Origin: a virus
Reading direction: 5' to 3' (one strand)
Virus record (IMG/VR): IMGVR_UViG_3300024518_000921
Span: 1-21,202 of that record
Length of the DNA stretch: 21,202 bases
Below, piece by piece: positions 8,596 to 19,312 of the stretch. Both the position numbers and the translations under genes were made by a program. The stretch's first letter is position 1, and each line of letters opens with the position of its first letter. Under the pieces are notes generated by a model. The model was not told where the DNA came from, did no database searches, and was given only the letters and a program-made list of their open reading frames with translations.

Positions 8596-8799
8596 TTATC
8601 TATTAGTAATGTTGTAAATAGTTTGAAGCGATACGCCATACTTTCGAGATAGCTTATTCCTCAACTCCATAACGCTAATTCTGCCAGTATTTTGATTGTA
8701 GAAATCTGCCTTTATTACTTCTTTAATTCTGTCCTTATGGTATAACCCTTTATCGGCTAAACCTAACGCCTCGTTAATATGTCCTTGCTTGTTCAACAT
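8596..8799 (-). CDS. Small helix-turn-helix protein
   Basis: 67 aa, all helical. The C-terminal RISVMELRNKLSRKYGVSLQ followed by TIYNITNR has the spacing of a helix-turn-helix, with GVS as the turn and LQTIYNITNR as a recognition helix. The start at 8799 overlaps the tape measure end by 26 nt, and the stop is 41 nt before the protease start. DNA-binding proteins are unusual in the middle of structural genes; together with the palindromes just downstream it could be a local regulator. It could instead be a DNA-binding morphogenesis factor. No named family was recognised. Confidence 0.6.
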   Translation of the reverse strand: MLNKQGHINEALGLADKGLYHKDRIKEVIKADFYNQNTGRISVMELRNKLSRKYGVSLQTIYNITNR

Positions 8800-11707
8800 T
8801 TGATACTTTTGTTTGTAGTTTGGTAAAATCTTGCTCTACGTTGATGACTTGCAGTTGTCTGTTCTCCGTTACGCTAACTAACTCGCTAACCCCTCTGCTC
8901 ACTTGGTCGCTTATCGTTCCAGTTGGAGTAGGTGCTATATATCCGCCCTCTGCGAACATCTTCGGAATACGCATATTATTCAAAGCATTCATAAAATCCA
9001 CTCCATAGTTGTCTACTGTGCTTTTCTTTACGATGTACTCGCCACCCTCTGCCTCAAATCCACCACGACCAGCTACACTAAACGGCACTCCGCCTTGTGA
9101 ATGACTTGCACCTTGAATAAGTCCGCCATCCTGGAACTTCTGCGCTGCGATTGTAGCTACTTGAGCAGCACCCAAAGCACCAATAGCGACAGCGTTTGCA
9201 GTTCTTAATACTTGTAATGGTGTAAAATCAGTAGTTTGCGAGAGTGTTGCTAACACCGCTTGAGCAGTATTAACAATAGCCATACTCACTTGCATTGCTT
9301 TCTGTCGTTTAAAGGCTTTACGCTCTATTTTCTCAAGTTTTTTATCTGCTTGTTCTTGGCTTAAAACTCCTGCTTCTACCTGCTCTTGAATTTTTTGTTT
9401 ATTACGCTCAGTAATAGTAGTCATTAAGTTGCCTAAGTTAGTTAGAGTGTTTGATACTTCGCCTAAAGAAGCCTTTAATTTCTCACGCCCCTCTTCTCCT
9501 AATCCTAAACCTTCAACTAAATCAATTCCCTCAATTCCTTCATCTGCATTACCTTGAATGGTATTTTGCAATTTTTGCATTTCGGCATTTATCTCGTTAA
9601 GTTGCTTTTTAAGCGCTGTTTCTTCTTCTGGTGTTAATGGCTCAATAAGACCACCACCAGCATCAGCGGTTAATCCGTCTAATTCTGCTTTAATCATTGT
9701 AGCTTGATTGGTTAAAGACTCCAACTCTAACTGCGCTTTTTGTTGTTGGTATTTTCTTTCGATTGCCAGTTTTTGTTCAGCAGTTAAATTGGCTTGTTCT
9801 AACTCTCTAAACTTTTTATAGTCCAATTCTGCTAACTCATTTTGTAAATCTTCTTCCCTTTGTTGTTCTTCTTCTTCAATAGCTTTTAACTTTAACTTTG
9901 CTATCTTGTTTTCACTCTCTGCTATAATTGCTTGGCGTTCTAACTCACTTAAACTTGTTTCAGCTAACTGCGCATCTCGCTTGTTCTTTTCTATTTCTAT
10001 TAATGTAGCTACTTCATCTCCTCCTTGCGCTTGGATTAGTTTTAACTGCGCTGCAAGGTTTTCTTTTTGCAAAGTATATCGTTCTGCTGCTATCTGTTTT
10101 TCCAATCGGACTAATCCACTCTTTTCATTTGCTTGTGCTTGTAAAAGTGCTATTTCTTTTTGCGCTAATTCTTCTGCTTCATCTGCATTATCCGTAGCTA
10201 ATGCACTTCTTCCTGCTTGTATGTCTTTTTCTACTTGTGCAATGTAGGTAAGATTTTTAAGTTTTTCGGTTTCTTTTTGTTTAGCTTCTTCTAATTTAGC
10301 AATAATTTCATCTTGAGTTAAATTAGCCTTATCCGCTGCATCTGCTCTTAACTGCGCTATCTCGCCCTCAAGTATTGCGTTATCTTTCAATAGTTTTCTA
10401 CGCTGGAATACTAAATCATTTTCTTTTTCTTGTAGTGCTGCCGCCTCTTCTGCATCGTCTAAAATTTCCGCATAAAAACCTTTTGCCGATTCTTTTGTTG
10501 ACTCCCACGCATCGCCTAAATTTTCTACACCTGCTTGTGTTTTGCCTATTACATCTTCTACTCCACTTGCACCTTGCAAAATTGCGTTGCCTAAATCCTT
10601 AAAGCCATCCTTCATATTATCAAGACCACCGCTAAATATTTTAACGATTGCCTTACCAGCTAAACTAAAAGCCTCGAGCCTATTCATTATGTTGTCTTGA
10701 ATAGCATCTCCAATTCGCTTAAATACGTCGCTAAGTTTTAATTCTTTAACATTGTTGAACGCATCAAAAATAACCTTACCAAAGTCAGCCATTTTGCTCG
10801 TGATATTAGCAGTAACACTACCTAAAGCAGCCATAATAACTTTGAGTTTCATCGCACCTTCTTCCGTGCTTTTGAAATAAGCTACTAAACTCCCTACCAC
10901 TACCACGAATGCACCTATACCAGTAGCAATCAATGCGAGTTTAAACACGTTCATTGCCACCTTCCCGGCTAATGTTGCTACGTTTAACGCTTTCTGCGCT
11001 GCCGTTTGTGAGTTAGTCGCTGCGGTGTGTGATTTTTGCACGCTTTCAGTAACCACTAATGCCTCAACGTGTGCCAATGTAGCCTCTTTAGTTTCTTTAA
11101 AACTCTTTGTAAGACCGCCCAAGTTAGTGCCGAAGATTGTCACGTTGCCTAAAGCATCTTGAATAGACTCGGAGTAGTTACCTACGTTTCTTCGGTTATC
11201 GCCTACTGCGCTCTCGTTATCTTTTAACTTATCTGTGATGTCCTTTATTTGCGTAGTAAGTTGTTGACCCTCTTCGGTGTTTTCTCTTTGCTCTGCACTT
11301 AACGAGTTATACTCCTTTGTTAAGATGCCTAATTGCGCCTTTAATTGCTCGTTACTGCCAAGTTCAGCATTCAATGCAGTGTTGTATTGGTCTACCTCTT
11401 TAACTGCCGCTCTACGCTCTGCATTTACTTTGCTTAACTCATCTTTTTGACTTGCTAATTCTACTTTGCTTGTTTGGATGTTTGCAGTTAATTCTTGCTC
11501 TCTTGCTATCTGCTCATCTGTTAACTGACCTCCAGCCTCTTGCTCTTTACGGAGTGCTGCTAATTCTTTTTCATACTCCTTGATTTCGGCAGTTGTTTGC
11601 TTAATTTCATCACGTTGTTCAATCTGCTTTTTAGTTAAATCATCAAGACCCTTTTTAGCATCGCCCAAACCCTTTAATTCTATGTCTATTACTACTTTTT
11701 CTGCCAT
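8774..11707 (-). CDS. Tape measure protein
   Basis: 977 aa, the longest protein here. Residues 15-180 and about 420-720 are long coiled coils rich in Glu, Lys, Gln and Ala. A hydrophobic segment lies at about 246-278 (AMNVFKLALIATGIGAFVVV), suited to membrane insertion during DNA injection. The C-terminus has a second hydrophobic alanine-rich stretch and the glycine motif FQDGGLIQGASHSQGG then GGEYIVKKSTV, typical of the tape measure end. It sets tail length, about 145 nm by the usual scale of 0.15 nm per residue, and so implies a siphovirus. Its ATG shares a base with the stop of the upstream tail-tip gene. The tail chaperone is not adjacent upstream, which is uncommon. Confidence 0.93.
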   Translation of the reverse strand: MAEKVVIDIELKGLGDAKKGLDDLTKKQIEQRDEIKQTTAEIKEYEKELAALRKEQEAGGQLTDEQIAREQELTANIQTSKVELASQKDELSKVNAERRAAVKEVDQYNTALNAELGSNEQLKAQLGILTKEYNSLSAEQRENTEEGQQLTTQIKDITDKLKDNESAVGDNRRNVGNYSESIQDALGNVTIFGTNLGGLTKSFKETKEATLAHVEALVVTESVQKSHTAATNSQTAAQKALNVATLAGKVAMNVFKLALIATGIGAFVVVVGSLVAYFKSTEEGAMKLKVIMAALGSVTANITSKMADFGKVIFDAFNNVKELKLSDVFKRIGDAIQDNIMNRLEAFSLAGKAIVKIFSGGLDNMKDGFKDLGNAILQGASGVEDVIGKTQAGVENLGDAWESTKESAKGFYAEILDDAEEAAALQEKENDLVFQRRKLLKDNAILEGEIAQLRADAADKANLTQDEIIAKLEEAKQKETEKLKNLTYIAQVEKDIQAGRSALATDNADEAEELAQKEIALLQAQANEKSGLVRLEKQIAAERYTLQKENLAAQLKLIQAQGGDEVATLIEIEKNKRDAQLAETSLSELERQAIIAESENKIAKLKLKAIEEEEQQREEDLQNELAELDYKKFRELEQANLTAEQKLAIERKYQQQKAQLELESLTNQATMIKAELDGLTADAGGGLIEPLTPEEETALKKQLNEINAEMQKLQNTIQGNADEGIEGIDLVEGLGLGEEGREKLKASLGEVSNTLTNLGNLMTTITERNKQKIQEQVEAGVLSQEQADKKLEKIERKAFKRQKAMQVSMAIVNTAQAVLATLSQTTDFTPLQVLRTANAVAIGALGAAQVATIAAQKFQDGGLIQGASHSQGGVPFSVAGRGGFEAEGGEYIVKKSTVDNYGVDFMNALNNMRIPKMFAEGGYIAPTPTGTISDQVSRGVSELVSVTENRQLQVINVEQDFTKLQTKVSNVEQARTY

Positions 11708-13650
11708 TACTTCATAATTAATTTAGCTTTCACTAATCGTTTAATAATATCATAAGACCATTCTACAATCTTGTAAACTTGGTCTTTGTAAATGTACTCT
11801 CGTCTATTGCTAACTATCGTACCTAACTCGTCTTTGAACGTTACCTCTATTATTTTGTTGTTTTTCTTTTGGTTTAAGGTGTTGATGAATAATCCATTTA
11901 AAACTTTACCTATCATAACTGGCTCGCTCCAAGTTATTAAAGCATCTATATTCGTTGTGGTTGTATCGCTATTAGTGTAATTAATGTTATCAGCACCATT
12001 ATATACGTTGTTTCTCCAATCAAATCTTAAAGACAAAACTTTACTCCACGATGTAGGTTCATCAGCCAAATATGGATAATTTTTTGCGAAATTACCATCT
12101 CTTGTAGACCTGCTAACCGAATCATAAAGACAATTAAAAAAACTTTCCACAGTTTCAACATTAGAACTATTAAATGTATTTAAATTATACAAATAACTTC
12201 CATAGGATTGATAAGGTAATAGTTGAGTTGTTTTAATATATGAATCATTTTCTATGTTTTGTTTTAAATATATTAAATCGCCTTGCAAGTATTCTATATC
12301 CGTTACCGTTTCATCTAATACGATGCTATCTAAATTATATTGCTCAATCGTTATGCTTGGTAATGATGCTGGACTTGCACCTATTGGCTCTGTTCCCTCA
12401 TCTTGTAGCTCAATATAAGCCTTATCTCCCTCAATTTGCAAAACTAAATTAAATTGCTTTAATACGCCTTTTAAAAAATCTAACTGTGAAAAATTGCTAA
12501 CATAATCAGCCCAACTAACTGCATCTCCTTGGGCAATATTATCATAACTTATCGAACATCTATCTACAACTATACTTGCTTCTGTTAATGGATAACTTGC
12601 ATTCGTATCTAAAAATACTCCAAATGTAATAATTTCGCCAGAACTAAAACTATAATCTAAATCAAGAGAAAATGTGTTTATTCCATTTTGCAAACTATTA
12701 CCTACACCAGTTAATTGATTGGTTGTATATCTATTATTTACTCCAAAACTATTCCATATATCTATAAATAACTGTGCGCTATTTAACTCGCCTAATTCGC
12801 AAGTTATTTGACCTTTTATTTTAAGTTTATTTATATTTCTATCCAGTTGGTAACTTTTCCCATTAGCAAAAGTAGAAACTGTCATTACGTTATTTGTTAA
12901 TGCCGTTCCTAAATCAAGTATTTGATAATTAGGGTAGTTATATGTGTAAATTGTAGCCGTTGGGCTTGATGATGGAATTTGCTCTCCACTATTTTCAAAA
13001 CCATTATGGCATAAAGAAAATCCACTGAAATCGGAATAAACAATTGATTCTCCATAATCGGAATCAAAAAAGTTAGATACCATAGAGTATCCCTCATCCG
13101 ATAATACTTTATAAACCAAGTGCTTTAAACTAAAAAATGGCGCAGAGTTTTCTGCACTTAATGGAGTTGGGAATAATTGTTCATAAAATGGATTGGCAAA
13201 ATTAAAACTTATATCAGTTCCTAATGATTTTGGGATAACTGCCTCTAATGCGGTTTTAATATTTGCGTCATTATAAATAAATTGCTGGTCGCTTGGGAAT
13301 AATTTCCAAAATGGTTTATTCCTTAAAGTCTTAATCAAGTCATTATCCTGCCCCATAAACAAGCACTTGAAATTGTCATTATCGTAGCCAGTAACGTAAA
13401 GTACTCCTTTGCTGAAGATATTACCCTCAATAGTGATGTAAGCTTCTCCGCTTGTTTGCGTTTGTGCGCCCTCTGTTGTAATGTTACCAAAAGCCAATTC
13501 GTTGTTAGCCGTTCTTGGTAAGGTAAATTGAGTAGATGCCGTTCCCGTTCTGTCCGTGAGGTTTTCAATCTTTGTCAAACCACCCTTAATAACTAAACCG
13601 CTTAATGCATCTTCTTTGTAATCAAGTTCTATTTCGTTGTACGTTATCAT
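11707..13650 (-). CDS. Tail tip / baseplate hub-like protein
   Basis: 647 aa. The N-terminus (KIENLTDRTGTASTQFTLPR and TANNELAFGN) looks like hub or distal-tail domains in Bacteroidota phages, where a bound peptide pattern such as RTxTxSxxFTLP recurs. The middle is beta-rich and Asn/Ser-rich (about 230-380), possibly a carbohydrate-binding or jelly-roll insert. Residues around 395-415, SQLDFLKGVLKQFNLVLQIE, match the conserved DxLKGxxxxFNL helix and strand of hub proteins. It is translationally coupled at both ends (ATGA with the upstream gene, TAATG with the tape measure). It would sit at the tail end, close the tube and organise receptor-binding parts. The order hub then tape measure is the reverse of the common one. 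Confidence 0.65.
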   Translation of the reverse strand: MITYNEIELDYKEDALSGLVIKGGLTKIENLTDRTGTASTQFTLPRTANNELAFGNITTEGAQTQTSGEAYITIEGNIFSKGVLYVTGYDNDNFKCLFMGQDNDLIKTLRNKPFWKLFPSDQQFIYNDANIKTALEAVIPKSLGTDISFNFANPFYEQLFPTPLSAENSAPFFSLKHLVYKVLSDEGYSMVSNFFDSDYGESIVYSDFSGFSLCHNGFENSGEQIPSSSPTATIYTYNYPNYQILDLGTALTNNVMTVSTFANGKSYQLDRNINKLKIKGQITCELGELNSAQLFIDIWNSFGVNNRYTTNQLTGVGNSLQNGINTFSLDLDYSFSSGEIITFGVFLDTNASYPLTEASIVVDRCSISYDNIAQGDAVSWADYVSNFSQLDFLKGVLKQFNLVLQIEGDKAYIELQDEGTEPIGASPASLPSITIEQYNLDSIVLDETVTDIEYLQGDLIYLKQNIENDSYIKTTQLLPYQSYGSYLYNLNTFNSSNVETVESFFNCLYDSVSRSTRDGNFAKNYPYLADEPTSWSKVLSLRFDWRNNVYNGADNINYTNSDTTTTNIDALITWSEPVMIGKVLNGLFINTLNQKKNNKIIEVTFKDELGTIVSNRREYIYKDQVYKIVEWSYDIIKRLVKAKLIMK

Positions 13651-14798
13651 TTAAAACTCGGTTTTTTTTGTGCGTATCTGTATTTAAAATTAAAATCAAT
13701 GCCTCGTGATTTGTCAACTAATTTAAAGCTGCCGTCTAACACGTTGATAGGTCTTATCTCTCCATTGATTACTATTGCTTGTATAGGACTGCTCACAAAG
13801 TCTTGCAATTCGCCCTTATGTCTGCTTGTGAAAAAGTTACCACGTACCTCATAATCCTCAACGATTGACTGATTCACTTTTACATTAGTAGCTGACGTAT
13901 TAAAAAAGTTAGTGTTGCCAGTATGAGTGTAACCCCCCGCCAAATAGCTTTCGCTTGATGTCTTAACGCTCTCATAATCGTAGGTCTCAAACTTGATATT
14001 CTCTTTAACTCCATATCGGTTAATAAACACAAACTCTTGCACCTTACATCTGTCCTCTACATAGTAGTACATATCGCCTAACGATGCGTGACTTGCTTTA
14101 AATCCAGCGTATTTCGATAGTGGTGTACTACTTGGTGGCACAAGTGCGTTAGTCGCTAAAAAAGTTCTATTCAATGGTACGCTAATTAGCCTATTTGTCC
14201 AGCTTGAAATATCTATCTCGGCAAACTGTTTCGGTGTAGTGTATTGGTTTGGCTTATCCGCTTCATACGTTACGATGCTAATCTGTGGACTTTGAGCAAA
14301 CACTACGCACCTATCGTATGCACCTTGATATTTAGGTGCAAAGCTACCATTAAACAACTCCGAGCCGTAAAGCATACCTTTTCGATTTATGCCATCGTTT
14401 GCAGTCTGGTCATTAGAGTATCTCAATCCGTCAATATTAGCAAAAGCATAAAACTCATTCGATGTCAATGCCGTTACTCCGTTAATAGGGTCAGTTACTT
14501 CGACCTCATATTTGCCGTATAAGTCAGTTAATTCTTCTATGGCAGTTGTGCTATACCCTTGCCCAGAAAGGATGTCTAAAACGCTCTTTAAATAGTTAGA
14601 GGCATCAAATGTATATGTATTATTTACTTTTAATGCTCGGTACTTTGGTACGTTAGGAATAGATGCGCCTGCGCTTGTCTTTAGTTCAAACTCTAAATAA
14701 GCTGGGTCGTTAGCCGTTTCAGTCGCTACAAACTTAACTGGTAAGTAAGCCGAATATAAGCCGTCTGCCGTTGGTTGTGTTGTTAATGCTATCGCCAT
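13647..14798 (-). CDS. Tail tip / distal tail-like structural protein
   Basis: 383 aa, beta-rich. The first 120 residues resemble an Ig-like domain (LPVKFVATETANDPAYLEFE, then YGKYEVEVTDP). The C-terminal half has VQEFVFINRYGVKENIKFET, followed by a SPIQAIVINGEIRPINVLDG region, a pattern seen in tail-end proteins of Bacteroidota phages. It lies immediately upstream of the hub-like protein with a 4-nt overlap, which supports a role in the same tail-tip complex. No enzyme motif, signal peptide or membrane segment is visible. Confidence 0.6.
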   Translation of the reverse strand: MAIALTTQPTADGLYSAYLPVKFVATETANDPAYLEFELKTSAGASIPNVPKYRALKVNNTYTFDASNYLKSVLDILSGQGYSTTAIEELTDLYGKYEVEVTDPINGVTALTSNEFYAFANIDGLRYSNDQTANDGINRKGMLYGSELFNGSFAPKYQGAYDRCVVFAQSPQISIVTYEADKPNQYTTPKQFAEIDISSWTNRLISVPLNRTFLATNALVPPSSTPLSKYAGFKASHASLGDMYYYVEDRCKVQEFVFINRYGVKENIKFETYDYESVKTSSESYLAGGYTHTGNTNFFNTSATNVKVNQSIVEDYEVRGNFFTSRHKGELQDFVSSPIQAIVINGEIRPINVLDGSFKLVDKSRGIDFNFKYRYAQKKPSFK

Positions 14799-14801
14799 AA
14801 T

Positions 14802-15068
14802 TTATAGTGCTCCTAATAAAACAATAATATCCATACATAGTGCATCCATCTTCGCAATCAAAGATGCTTGAGTGTTTTCTAATGCAGTTATCTTGTCATC
14901 TCGTAATTCAACAAACACCAAGCCATCCGTTATGAATGTTTCTTCGTTTATGGTAATCTTTCCGCTTGTCTGTCCAGTTATCGCAGTTTCTTGAGCCACC
15001 GCTGCCTCGTAGTTAACCGCATCCACTTCAAGTTCTGCTATCTTTGCCTTTATACTTTCTATGCTCAT
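14802..15068 (-). CDS. Small coiled-coil hypothetical protein
   Basis: 88 aa, not recognised. The N-terminal 35 residues and C-terminal 30 residues are helical with heptad-like spacing of Ile/Leu/Ala; in between is a short beta patch (GKITINEETFITDGLVFVEL). The ATG overlaps the preceding gene stop as ATGA and the next gene begins after 3 nt. It is probably a minor tail or assembly factor by position. Its C-terminus (MDIIVLLGAL) is hydrophobic but too short to be a clear membrane anchor. Confidence 0.6.
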   Translation of the reverse strand: MSIESIKAKIAELEVDAVNYEAAVAQETAITGQTSGKITINEETFITDGLVFVELRDDKITALENTQASLIAKMDALCMDIIVLLGAL

Positions 15069-15484
15069 TTCCTCAATTTTAGTTCTTGTGTAATAACGTA
15101 TACTTGTGCTTTTCTTGCTATCTCTCTTCTATTTTCATCTAATACTTGCTTGGTAATTTGTAGCCTTTCTTTTTGGTCGTTTATCCAAGCATTGCCCTCA
15201 AAAATGTTTTTTTGTACTAATAATCCGCTTTTCCCCCAGTCATTTGGATTAGGGTATCTTTTGCTTCTATTTACAACCCATCCCCTTAACTCATCCAGTC
15301 CAACTCTTGTACCTGCTGGTATGCCGTTGTTAATTTCTTCCCAATAGTCAACTCCATAAATGTACAAATGGTCTCCATCTATAACCTCTCGCAAACTTCT
15401 TACCGCTTCGCCACTTGCAGAGCGTTTGTGATAATCCATTTTTTGCTCAATCTTAATTTTCAAAAAGTCACCTAATTGGCTCAT
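15065..15484 (-). CDS. HK97 gp10-like neck / tail completion protein
   Basis: 139 aa. The central ASGEAVRSLREVIDGDHLYI followed by YGVDYWEEINNGIPAGTRVG and LDELRGWV resembles the HK97 gp10-like family: a helix, then strands with a YW...G.P loop. These proteins act at the head-tail joint or as tail completion factors. The C-terminal 50 residues are a long charged helix. It overlaps both neighbours by 4 nt (ATGA). The match is by pattern; a minor tail protein is possible. Confidence 0.5.
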   Translation of the reverse strand: MSQLGDFLKIKIEQKMDYHKRSASGEAVRSLREVIDGDHLYIYGVDYWEEINNGIPAGTRVGLDELRGWVVNRSKRYPNPNDWGKSGLLVQKNIFEGNAWINDQKERLQITKQVLDENRREIARKAQVYVITQELKLRK

Positions 15485-15732: not shown

Positions 15733-17145
15733 TTAAGTTAGTGTTGCGCCATCCCAAGTAAATGTTCGCACCCACATAGCGTAGTTATTAGATGTTTTAG
15801 AAATCGCCTCTAAATCGAAAGTATTCCTTTGCTTGTAGATAGCGGTTGCAGTATTACTTGGTACTGTTGTTGATGTATACAAACGATTACTAAATGGGTT
15901 GTAAAACGGATAGTCATTTATCCCAGATTCATCATTGTAGTTAATTAAAGTAGACATTTCCGAAGCATTAACTACATACCAATTTCCAAAGCCACCAGTA
16001 GTGTAAGGTTGACCACTCATCCAAGTTGTCCAATCGGCAATGCCATTATTACTATCGCTATTAGAACTTAAAATATATCCATTGACATTTGTTCCACCAT
16101 CCCATGTTCCCCAATCTATCACAATGTTTTTAGTGAACGTTTGACCACCGAACTCATCAGTAAATCTTTCAGTATTTCCAAATCCGTTATTATAGAATAA
16201 TGTATTTACATCTACCTCTCTACCGCGCTGCAAATCGCCATCATCTCCAGTCGCATAGCTTGTCGTTTGACCACTTTTTAAAGGTAATAATCCTTTTGAA
16301 GAACACCCAGCAGATGTATCAACTACTATCTTGTTTCCCACTACACTATCTGGAGTAATCGGTGCATCGCTTGTATCTACCAATTCAATGTCTTGGTCTT
16401 TTACGCTCGGCTTCGTTAGAAATGCGCCACTATTCAAGGTAATGTTTTCATCGGGCAGTTCTAAATCTCCACCACTTACTACGTTAACATCGTACGAATC
16501 ATCACTATTGCTTACTCTTGCATCTGCTCCGCCCTGCGTTACTACTATCTCATAGCCAGTAAATGTAGCATCGTTGATTAAATCTCCATCTTGATTCTTT
16601 AAGATAAGTTCTAAATCCACGTTACACGCTTGTGTATATCTCAATACATCGTTGAAATACACTTGTACTTGGCTTGGTGTAGGTGCTATTTGCTCTGGGT
16701 CAACGCAGAAATCTCGCTTAATGGAAATATTAACCCGGAAATCAACAGTTAAAAACTCATTTATTCCTAAACGTTCCGCTATTGGAATTTCCTCTGTGCT
16801 AATTATCTCTAAATAATCATCTCCACTCTCAAATGGCATAGCTTGTAGCCAGTTGTAGAAATACGTTCTAAGCGCGTTTTGTTGAGTTACTATGTAATCA
16901 CGTTGGTAGGTGTCTGTTTCCACCCTTACGCTATCCGGAAAGGTAGTAATCAAGTAGACATTTAGGCTCATCTCTGTCCCTACTTCATCAAAGTTATTAG
17001 TCTCGCCACTATAACGCCACATAAGGCAAGGCATTGTCTGCTCTAACAATAAGTTGACGTCAAAAAGTGTTTCTATCTCTGTATAAGTAAGCCCATTATC
17101 TATGGCTTTATCTCTTATTCTATTCCTTAACTCAAGCAAGTTCAT
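15733..17145 (-). CDS. Tail protein with DUF1566/Lcl-like C-terminus
   Basis: 470 aa of apparently composite architecture. Residues 1-145 are alpha/beta (LELRNRIRDKAIDNGLTYTE, a YNWLQAMPF helix, then FLTVDFRVNISIK) and could be a tail terminator or completion domain. Residues 155-280 are beta-rich and Asp/Ser-rich, probably a linker or Ig-like stalk. Residues about 310-470 resemble DUF1566 (Lcl C-terminal) domains: NIVIDWGTWDGG, GFGNWYVVNASEMSTLINY, RLYTSTTVPSNTATAIY and MWVRTFTW. Such domains occur in surface and fibre proteins and may bind host surfaces. It follows the chaperone-like gene after 41 nt. It may be the receptor-binding protein of this phage; fusion with an N-terminal tail domain is unusual. 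Codons 437-443 contain the 20-nt repeat. Confidence 0.65.
   Translation of the reverse strand: MNLLELRNRIRDKAIDNGLTYTEIETLFDVNLLLEQTMPCLMWRYSGETNNFDEVGTEMSLNVYLITTFPDSVRVETDTYQRDYIVTQQNALRTYFYNWLQAMPFESGDDYLEIISTEEIPIAERLGINEFLTVDFRVNISIKRDFCVDPEQIAPTPSQVQVYFNDVLRYTQACNVDLELILKNQDGDLINDATFTGYEIVVTQGGADARVSNSDDSYDVNVVSGGDLELPDENITLNSGAFLTKPSVKDQDIELVDTSDAPITPDSVVGNKIVVDTSAGCSSKGLLPLKSGQTTSYATGDDGDLQRGREVDVNTLFYNNGFGNTERFTDEFGGQTFTKNIVIDWGTWDGGTNVNGYILSSNSDSNNGIADWTTWMSGQPYTTGGFGNWYVVNASEMSTLINYNDESGINDYPFYNPFSNRLYTSTTVPSNTATAIYKQRNTFDLEAISKTSNNYAMWVRTFTWDGATLT
15818..15837. repeat. 20-nt exact repeat, copy 2
   Basis: Identical on the plus strand to 508-527 (AAAGTATTCCTTTGCTTGTA). Here it encodes part of IYKQRNTF in the DUF1566-like domain; the other copy is read in another frame. 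The two copies are about 15.3 kb apart in direct orientation. Confidence 0.6.
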
Positions 17146-17186: not shown

Positions 17187-18013
17187 TTATTGAGCCGATG
17201 CACTCTTATATTCTATAAACGCCATAACCTCATCTAATCTTGTGTTCAGCACTTGGTCGAATCTATTCAAATCCTTTTTCCAAAACTTCCACCACGCTAC
17301 ATCGTATGAAAAGACTCCAGACTCTGCGACACTTGCGAATAAAGGATAGTAGCCCAACTGACCGAGGTACTTGTTAGCTTTTCCATTTCCTCTACTACTG
17401 CCGAATGTCGCTGGGTGTCTACCTTGTAACTCCTCAACGAACTCAACAAAAAAAAAGCGCACGAGTAAAATAAATCCATTCTGCCGTACTTCTTTAAAAA
17501 CTCTATACGCTGATTGATTTCTTCCAAGTCTTGATAGTATTCTCCGTTTCTCATGTAAACCGCAGCAATCAATAATCCTTTTTCTGCATCGTTGTAGTCT
17601 TCGTGCATAGCTAATAAACTCATTACATCCATAAAATCTCCACAAGTACCTTGCTCAAATTTAGGTACGCTAAACTTCTTGCCTTTTATCTTAAAATTGC
17701 GCTTTGGCTTTTCTTCGGATAACCACCCAAACTGAATGAGGAACAAGTTATTAATCTTATTAAATTCTACGTTCAGTAATTCCTCGTAAGTAATCCCCTC
17801 GCCTAACGATGCGATAGTGCCACACATAGACTCTATGACCTTTACTTGGCTTTCTTCAAGTTTACCCTCCTCAAACAATCTATTAGCCTCTAATGCTAAC
17901 TCTACATACTTGTAAGCGTTGTTCCATTGCTCAAGAGTAACCTCGTGTCTACCAGTAGGTAGCTTAACTATTTTCTTCTCTTTGCCGTTTGCTGTGATTC
18001 TGTATTCGTTCAT
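17187..18013 (-). CDS. Tail assembly chaperone, -1 frameshift fusion product
   Basis: Reading from 18013 with a -1 shift in the T run at 17448-17456 gives a 275-aa protein: 188 residues of the first frame, then 87 of the second. The first frame alone stops at 17299. The shifted frame reads as genuine protein (ELQGRHPATFGSSRGNGKAN, LGYYPLFASVAESGVF, then NRFDQVLNTRLDEVMAFIEY), whereas the unshifted tail looks random. A short and a long product from a -1 slip is the signature of lambda gpG/gpGT-type tail assembly chaperones, which coat the tape measure and recruit tube subunits. No homologue was confirmed, and the gene lies next to terminase rather than beside the tape measure. A real frameshift mutation or a homopolymer sequencing error is the alternative. 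Confidence 0.65.
17297..18013 (-). CDS. Tail assembly chaperone, unshifted short product
   Basis: 238 aa if the ribosome does not slip. Residues 1-185 are helical with an N-terminal beta piece (YRITANGKEKKIVKLPTGRH followed by EVTLEQWNNAY), resembling small phage chaperones where a loaded T-L-x-Q-W helix follows a strand. After the slippery codons the zero frame continues for 50 residues (LLSSLRSYKVDTQRHSAVVE...). The ATG at 18013 overlaps a possible 50-aa gene by 50 nt. This product would be the major, G-like form. Confidence 0.6.
   Translation of the reverse strand: MNEYRITANGKEKKIVKLPTGRHEVTLEQWNNAYKYVELALEANRLFEEGKLEESQVKVIESMCGTIASLGEGITYEELLNVEFNKINNLFLIQFGWLSEEKPKRNFKIKGKKFSVPKFEQGTCGDFMDVMSLLAMHEDYNDAEKGLLIAAVYMRNGEYYQDLEEINQRIEFLKKYGRMDLFYSCAFFLLSSLRSYKVDTQRHSAVVEEMEKLTSTSVSWATILYSQVSQSLESFHTM
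17447..17456 (-). promoter_or_regulatory. -1 ribosomal frameshift site (TTTTTTTTTG)
   Basis: The zero frame reads GCT TTT TTT TTG. This places T TTT TTT and, three bases on, T TTT TTG in the phase needed for -1 slippage (X XXY YYZ). The downstream open frame is exactly in the -1 phase. No clear stimulating stem or pseudoknot was recognised in the 70 nt that follow. Confidence 0.65.
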
Positions 18014-18116
18014 CTTCTATTTTTGCCAGTAGTTTGTATAACTTATTCTCATCCCTTAAGTTAGGGCAATCATTCAACTTTTCAATTAGTTCTAATATCT
18101 GTGATTCTAACTCCAT
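17964..18116 (-). CDS. Possible 50-aa coiled-coil protein
   Basis: MELESQILELIEKLNDCPNL begins a 50-aa helical, charged product. Its ATG shares a base with the terminase large subunit stop (TAATG), the same coupling used by clear genes here, and it fills the 102-nt space before the chaperone start. Its last 50 nt overlap the chaperone gene in another frame, which is more than most neighbours overlap. No family recognised. Confidence 0.45.
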   Translation of the reverse strand: MELESQILELIEKLNDCPNLRDENKLYKLLAKIEDERIQNHSKRQREENS

Positions 18117-19312
18117 TATAGGTACACTTTAGGTTTAGCCTTTCCGTAATTATACCAAACAAAATACCCCATCGCATCTGTACTGTGGTTAATGCTTTTA
18201 TCTGGCTCATCGTTCTTATATCCTATCGTTTCTAAATGCTCTGTGAAGATAGGGCATTTATAGGTATTTATAAAAACCGTTTGATTTTCGAACACCTTGT
18301 TCATCGTGTTAATCCTATCCCTTACAAACGGATTGCTTGTTAATGCCTTAATCCCAAAGTTGTACTTCTTGAGGATGTTAATGTCCGTTTCCGCTGCGCT
18401 TGTTTTTCTATTCTTACCACTTGCATCCGGGTACACTATTACTCGGTTATTAGGAAAGTCTTGCTTTATCTTACTCGCTACTGAATCGGTGTTGTAGTAA
18501 TTAATATACTCTGCTACCGCAGTCGCTACTCCGTTCTCTATCACGTTCACAATAGCGCACATTTGATTAATATTAAAGTCCATTCCAACGTGTAATATTT
18601 CTCCTTCTTGTGCTTCTCTATTCGAATGGTTATTTACCCTATCAAAAGCATAGTAAACGTTTCCGCTTGTGATATTTACAAACTCGCCATTGAGATAAGC
18701 CTCTAATTCCGTAGCTGAATAGATGCCTTTTAAGGTTTCAATGTATGCACTTGGGAGATATGGGTTATCTTTTGTTTTCGCTTTAACCAGCACTCTATTT
18801 TCATCCTTATTTTTAACAAAGAAATCGTACATAAACCTAAACCCCTCTGGAGTGCTTACAAAGTCTAACGAGTTATGCTCTCCATTAGGTAGCTTCTTTC
18901 TATTCCTTGCTACCACATTGACTAATACTTGTCGCATTTTGTCTTTAGGCGGTATATCTGCTTCGTCTATTAAGCTATAACCTACCTCATACCCAATTAT
19001 GTACTCGGGACTATCTATTGACCTCATTATTATTTTCCCGTATTCGGTGTTAAACTCTTTATCCGACTTATTAAGGTCGTAAGTAATACCCATCATTTGC
19101 AGGTACTTCTCAAAATTGGGGAATGCGATGTCTTTTATTAGAGAATAAGTAGGTAGATAATAAGCTACCGAGATGTCTGGATACTGCTTCTTCTTTTCAA
19201 TAGTCTTAATTGTAGCTGCGATACTCTTTCCACTACCGAAACCAGCAACCAATCCAGTATGTACTGCGTTGCTCTTTAAGAACTCAGCTTGATGTGTTAG
19301 TATTTCTATCAT
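18116..19312 (-). CDS. terL: Terminase large subunit
   Basis: 398 aa, a normal though compact TerL. The ATPase domain has Walker A GFGSGKS (24-30), Walker B YSLIDEAD with Asp116 and Glu117, and the coupling motif STPEG (153-157). The RNase H-like nuclease domain has acidic residues in GMDFN (Asp245), VYPDASGK (Asp296) and HSTDAMGY (Asp379). The enzyme cuts concatemeric DNA and pumps it through the portal. The start at 19312 overlaps the small subunit by 29 nt. The strategy (cos or headful) cannot be inferred from the motifs alone. Strong call. Confidence 0.97.
   Translation of the reverse strand: MIEILTHQAEFLKSNAVHTGLVAGFGSGKSIAATIKTIEKKKQYPDISVAYYLPTYSLIKDIAFPNFEKYLQMMGITYDLNKSDKEFNTEYGKIIMRSIDSPEYIIGYEVGYSLIDEADIPPKDKMRQVLVNVVARNRKKLPNGEHNSLDFVSTPEGFRFMYDFFVKNKDENRVLVKAKTKDNPYLPSAYIETLKGIYSATELEAYLNGEFVNITSGNVYYAFDRVNNHSNREAQEGEILHVGMDFNINQMCAIVNVIENGVATAVAEYINYYNTDSVASKIKQDFPNNRVIVYPDASGKNRKTSAAETDINILKKYNFGIKALTSNPFVRDRINTMNKVFENQTVFINTYKCPIFTEHLETIGYKNDEPDKSINHSTDAMGYFVWYNYGKAKPKVYL

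Follow-up and report, generated by a model that had tools for sequence, protein, structure and literature searches.

The window analysed here, a stretch of 21,202 nucleotides from a virus (IMG/VR record IMGVR_UViG_3300024518_000921), carries on its minus strand a morphogenesis-type gene with two alternative ends, located directly after the gene of the large terminase subunit. The features of this region are the following:

18116..19312, minus strand: terminase large subunit, the next gene upstream (PHROGs terminase matches)
17297..18013, minus strand: 0-frame ORF of 238 aa, formed of a common N-terminal domain (residues 1-188) and a 50-aa unshifted tail (homologues; AlphaFold2 model of residues 1-188)
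17448..17456, minus strand: slippery run of nine T with two in-phase heptamers (at least nine T and an in-phase T_TTT_TTT in 95 of 95 sequences)
17187..17450, minus strand: C-terminal extension in the -1 frame, 87 codons and TAA, with a predicted fusion product of 275 aa (purifying-selection pattern in the -1 frame)
17297..17449, minus strand: putative dual-coded stretch, in which the 0-frame tail (50 codons) and its stop overlie the -1 extension (reduced synonymous change in the -1 frame; 0-frame similarity above a codon-shuffle null)
15733..17145, minus strand: 470-aa gene after the frameshift gene, its N-terminal part putatively tail-terminator-like (synteny)
15065..15484, minus strand: 139-aa neck-type gene (the syntenic P12024L gp43 weakly matches HK97-gp10_like)
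11707..14798, minus strand: two tail-type genes (383 aa and 647 aa) that separate the frameshift gene from the tape measure gene (minor tail, weak, E 0.028; synteny)
8774..11707, minus strand: tape measure protein, 977 aa (PHROGs tape measure matches)

Slip site and conservation of the two frames

The 238-aa ORF (18013..17297) contains the run of nine T at 17456..17448, which is read as GCT TTT TTT TTG at codons 186-189. Two overlapping canonical heptamers lie on it in the right phase, T_TTT_TTT (17456..17450) and T_TTT_TTG (17453..17447), and the -1 frame entered at 17450 stays open for exactly 87 codons until a TAA at 17189..17187; heptamers and extension had both been described in a preliminary description of this DNA, and both are confirmed on the sequence. 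As a control, about 59 in-phase X_XXY_YYZ heptamers were scanned over the 25 genes of the window, where the -1 extensions of the other genes had at most 39 codons and passed the 0-frame stop by at most 26 nt; the same scan of these 25 genes gave no second frameshift candidate. A second nine-base homopolymer is found at 2202-2210, being A9 in the sense of an 87-aa gene (1964-2227) and in phase near the start of that gene, with a -1 extension of merely 16 codons.

Relatives were gathered from viral contigs by protein search and profile searches. The T run is kept in all 33 window-like sequences, a set that counts the window itself and whose identity in the common domain goes down to 48%, and their -1 ORF is kept as far as each contig extends. 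A query with gp40 of Nonlabens phage P12024L added 63 viral contigs, 62 of which span the slip site, each with T9 or T10. Together they make 95 site-spanning sequences (68 distinct neighbourhoods, 18 clusters at 80% identity), and a run of 9-10 T, an in-phase T_TTT_TTT and a -1 ORF are present in every one of them. Thus the in-phase X_XXY_YYZ heptamer of programmed -1 ribosomal frameshifting is found throughout, and so is a mark of gpG/gpGT genes, a conserved slippery site linking two ORFs in different frames, together with a conserved -1 product. From codon usage alone the chance of an in-phase heptamer in 95 of 95 would be about 10^-16, a figure that assumes independent clusters and overstates the significance. 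When the fused products of the window-like and P12024-like groups were compared, hhalign gave a probability of 98.1% (E 1.3e-13, 227 columns) with coinciding slip sites, and 96% and 77% for the N-terminal and C-terminal parts taken separately; on this sequence comparison the genes of the two groups are homologous and collinear from one side of the slip site to the other, the N-terminal domain of the window gene sharing 13-22% identity with P12024-like ones. Independent translation of the -1 ORF was considered as well and rejected, as no start codon is conserved close to where the ORF begins: in 88 of the 95 loci the first 40 codons of the extension are free of ATG, which makes such translation unlikely.

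Homopolymers of nine are prone to error, and a sequencing or assembly mistake in the T run, or a decayed gene, could in principle give the same picture. Yet many metagenomes have contributed to the 95 sequences in which the same run and two-frame layout recur, the cultured phages P12024L and P12024S show them too, and selection is seen in both frames; no homologue with one continuous frame was found among the relatives collected. A sequencing error in the nine-T run is excluded by these sequences, cultured phages included, and error or decay of any kind appears extremely improbable. Since the T run and both frames are kept in 95 related sequences, the switch probably works and is no sequencing mistake. 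The preliminary proposal of a real -1 frame switch, for which an alignment of homologues over the T run and the -1 frame had been suggested as a check, is therefore supported.

The unshifted frame runs on for 50 codons (150 nt) past the slip, and for 16-84 codons in the relatives. Published tail-chaperone sites have means of 26 and 36 nt from slip to stop, against the 150 nt of the window gene (PMC10885494). Among close relatives, substitutions fall at third positions of the 0 frame upstream of the slip and at third positions of the -1 frame past the 0-frame stop, a pattern of purifying selection, while neither pattern dominates in the overlap. At four-fold sites of the -1 frame, distant window-like relatives show an identity of 0.53 in the overlap versus 0.32 beyond it. 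Moreover, the similarity of the 0-frame tails exceeds that expected from random synonymous choice in the -1 frame, with a mean z of 2.9 (15 pairs) and 3.7 (21 pairs), these pairs sharing sequences and not being independent; the third-frame control gave z 1.0 and 1.6, and control regions averaged about 0, with a highest mean of 1.15. A codon-shuffle test of the openness of the 0 frame alone was modest in window-like sequences (P 0.006-0.2) and strong in many P12024-like ones (P <0.00025 to 0.017), L073 and L075 not among them; the similarity test, having control frames and regions, is the better of the two. Most window-like lineages keep the stop of the 238-aa frame (GTA-G when read in -1) in one position, from which it is shifted in L042. 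Similarity of the tail beyond the -1-frame null indicates that the unshifted product has its own conserved end, and the 50-codon tail itself appears to be conserved as protein and under selection. The switch would then give two alternative, dual-coded C-termini, which is new here.

Genomic position and the overlooked gene of cultured phages

From the -1 stop to the start of the tape measure gene (11707) there are 5480 nt, and in the relatives measured in both groups this gap is 3.5-6.8 kb. The odd position pointed out in the preliminary description, beside the terminase and more than 5 kb from the tape measure gene with tail and neck genes between, is thus borne out, as is its remark that tail chaperones normally lie directly before the tape measure gene, seen in lambda and HK97. 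What it missed is that this position seems to be a trait of the whole lineage, a cultured phage included, rather than of one odd genome: by comparison of contigs, both groups have the common order terminase, frameshift gene, tail-terminator and neck-type genes, two tail genes, tape measure, protease and capsid. In two P12024-like contigs (L098 and L099), an insert of about 3 kb separates terminase and frameshift gene. The C-terminal part of the 470-aa gene has a weak Lcl_C match that fails the cut-off (E 4.7e-4), and in L058 and L068 its later part finds matches at two or three separate places, which suggests repeats or duplication.

The Nonlabens phages P12024L and P12024S (also known as Persicivirga phages) carry a homologous gene, which is likewise the first after the terminase and has its T9 in phase. 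In P12024L (locus L072, 23946-24640), gp40 is the first gene after the large terminase gene; its -1 extension runs to 81 codons, some of them annotated as gp41. The two are listed as hypothetical proteins, the frameshift that joins them having gone unnoticed in the annotation. The division made in GenBank recurs in PHROGs, as phrog_32199 and phrog_38404, both of unknown function. The 0-frame tail of this gene has 25 codons versus 50 in the window. AlphaFold2 models of the common domain (residues 1-188) reached pLDDT 82 and later 86.6, and the modelled fold matched uncharacterised viral proteins in BFVD, including a 175-aa protein of P12024S which, by its length, is probably the counterpart of P12024L gp40 (UniProt entry). 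Two scans of genome contigs gave no relative for the host of the window, and Bacteroidota is suggested as host by association with P12024 only.

A putative tail assembly chaperone

In long-tailed phages, a conserved low-level -1 switch that adds a second domain is a hallmark of the tail chaperones, whose sequences otherwise have little in common (PMC5009743). By analogy with lambda G/GT, most translation would yield the 238-aa short form, and a minority of events would shift to -1 on T9 and yield a product of 275 aa, in which the first 188 residues are shared and the last 87 differ. By the same analogy, the common domain would be the part that binds the tape measure, recruitment of the tail tube protein falling to the -1 domain. 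Like lambda G/GT and HK97 gp13 with its frameshift product, the window gene would thus have a short form and a rare -1 form with a common N-terminal domain, and like lambda G/GT it is located among morphogenesis genes. It differs from them in many respects: the lambda and HK97 genes lie just before the tape measure gene and lambda T overlaps its start, whereas the window gene is 5.5 kb away beside the terminase; 5 codons follow a GGGAAAG slip site in lambda and 50 follow a U9 site in the window; and no homology to lambda G/GT is detectable. A place directly upstream of the tape measure gene, a further mark of gpG/gpGT, is found in none of the loci measured in the two groups.

No match to a known chaperone was obtained in Pfam, PHROGs, NCBIfam, PDB or with a profile of B40-8-type chaperones, and PDB gave nothing meaningful by fold or by sequence; in the fold list the sole named chaperone stood at E 1.6, the remaining BFVD hits being uncharacterised viral proteins and that of P12024S. 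The B40-8-type chaperones of Bacteroides, Parabacteroides and Croceibacter phages have the same proposed role, a total of about 250 aa and a homopolymer run near the middle; unlike the window gene they lie directly before the tape measure gene, mostly in one open frame, and their run is of A. Homology to them was rejected, with hhalign probabilities of 0.3-0.5%. In the eight B40-8-type genomes read (within L142-L149, L137 and L141), the A9-A10 run (AAA AAA AAA) has a fixed place at about codon 131, where slipping would give the short form, the reverse of lambda. Croceibacter phage P2559S (A8) and a close metagenomic relative (A9) are both out of frame and split into two frames.

Other phages are known to have frameshifts in capsid and tail-tube genes (PMC5009743), so the frame switch by itself is no proof of a chaperone. 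The gene could instead encode another two-form morphogenesis protein, such as a factor acting on the terminase side, in the neck or in head-tail joining; its place next to the terminase and to neck and terminator-type genes rather than the tape measure gene would suit such a role, as would the undetected chaperone homology. We regard this as unlikely, as low-level -1 switches that are conserved and lead to a second domain are known in long-tailed phages chiefly from tail chaperones, and the window holds no other candidate chaperone by anatomy. The chaperone identity given in the preliminary description is hence plausible for its frame switch, its two-domain layout, its tail and neck cluster and the lack of a rival in the window, even though the searches gave no match to a known chaperone. 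The slip site, the -1 protein, the 0-frame tail and the position after the terminase are conserved on comparison of sequences; the occurrence of the switch, its ratio and all chaperone activity are what we infer. A low-level -1 switch being the hallmark and a family match being absent, our confidence in the chaperone reading, drawn from anatomy, is moderate: the gene probably works like gpG/gpGT as a lineage-specific tail assembly chaperone, and membership in gpG/gpGT is not claimed.

Ribosomal or polymerase slippage

An in-phase heptamer suffices for ribosomal slippage, and slippage of the ribosome at U_UUU_UUU is slightly favoured by us as the cause of the switch. The same products would arise if RNA polymerase slipped on T9 and inserted one U, a serious alternative to which we give somewhat less credence and which the preliminary description, though right about the -1 switch, had missed, as it had missed selection on the unshifted tail. 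Bacterial polymerases slip on runs of nine, nine A or T being the slippage-prone size, and in E. coli ribosomes slip only weakly at U_UUU_UUU (PMC5009743). Moreover, the run has 9-10 T in 95 of 95 sequences though 7 are enough for the ribosome; its extra T's lie 3' of the heptamer, 5' of it or on both sides according to lineage, with a total of nearly always 9; and chaperones at the ordinary position in Bacteroidota phages carry A8-A10 runs. Against polymerase slippage speaks the placement of the run, which in every case leaves a T_TTT_TTT in phase; the extra T's, moreover, follow largely from the hydrophobic residues conserved in the two frames, so that run length may not be selected itself. 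The lack of a conserved stem-loop downstream also points to the polymerase. A hairpin does follow the slip site in the window (17376-17447, minus strand; -18 kcal/mol, z -2.67), and was rejected as a stimulatory element: it is lost already in L017, at 88% identity, as it is in other relatives, and the alignment gives no consensus structure. Such a stimulatory RNA structure is not obligatory for ribosomal slippage.

Perhaps, and this we hold to be doubtful as a whole, T9 serves to switch between two C-terminal domains, both dual-coded and selected, rather than between a truncated and an extended form, working at least partly by polymerase slippage, in a chaperone family unrelated to the known ones and fixed beside the terminase across a broad aquatic phage lineage. 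With an invariant U9 and no conserved RNA structure, these genes would offer a clean natural system for comparing ribosomal and polymerase slippage in phages. The conserved unshifted tail implies that the short form has a functional end of its own. The cultured phages P12024L and P12024S carry an overlooked frameshift gene, kept as two hypothetical genes and two PHROGs families of unknown function. A morphogenesis gene that switches frame can lie away from the tape measure gene, so that annotation based on position misses it.
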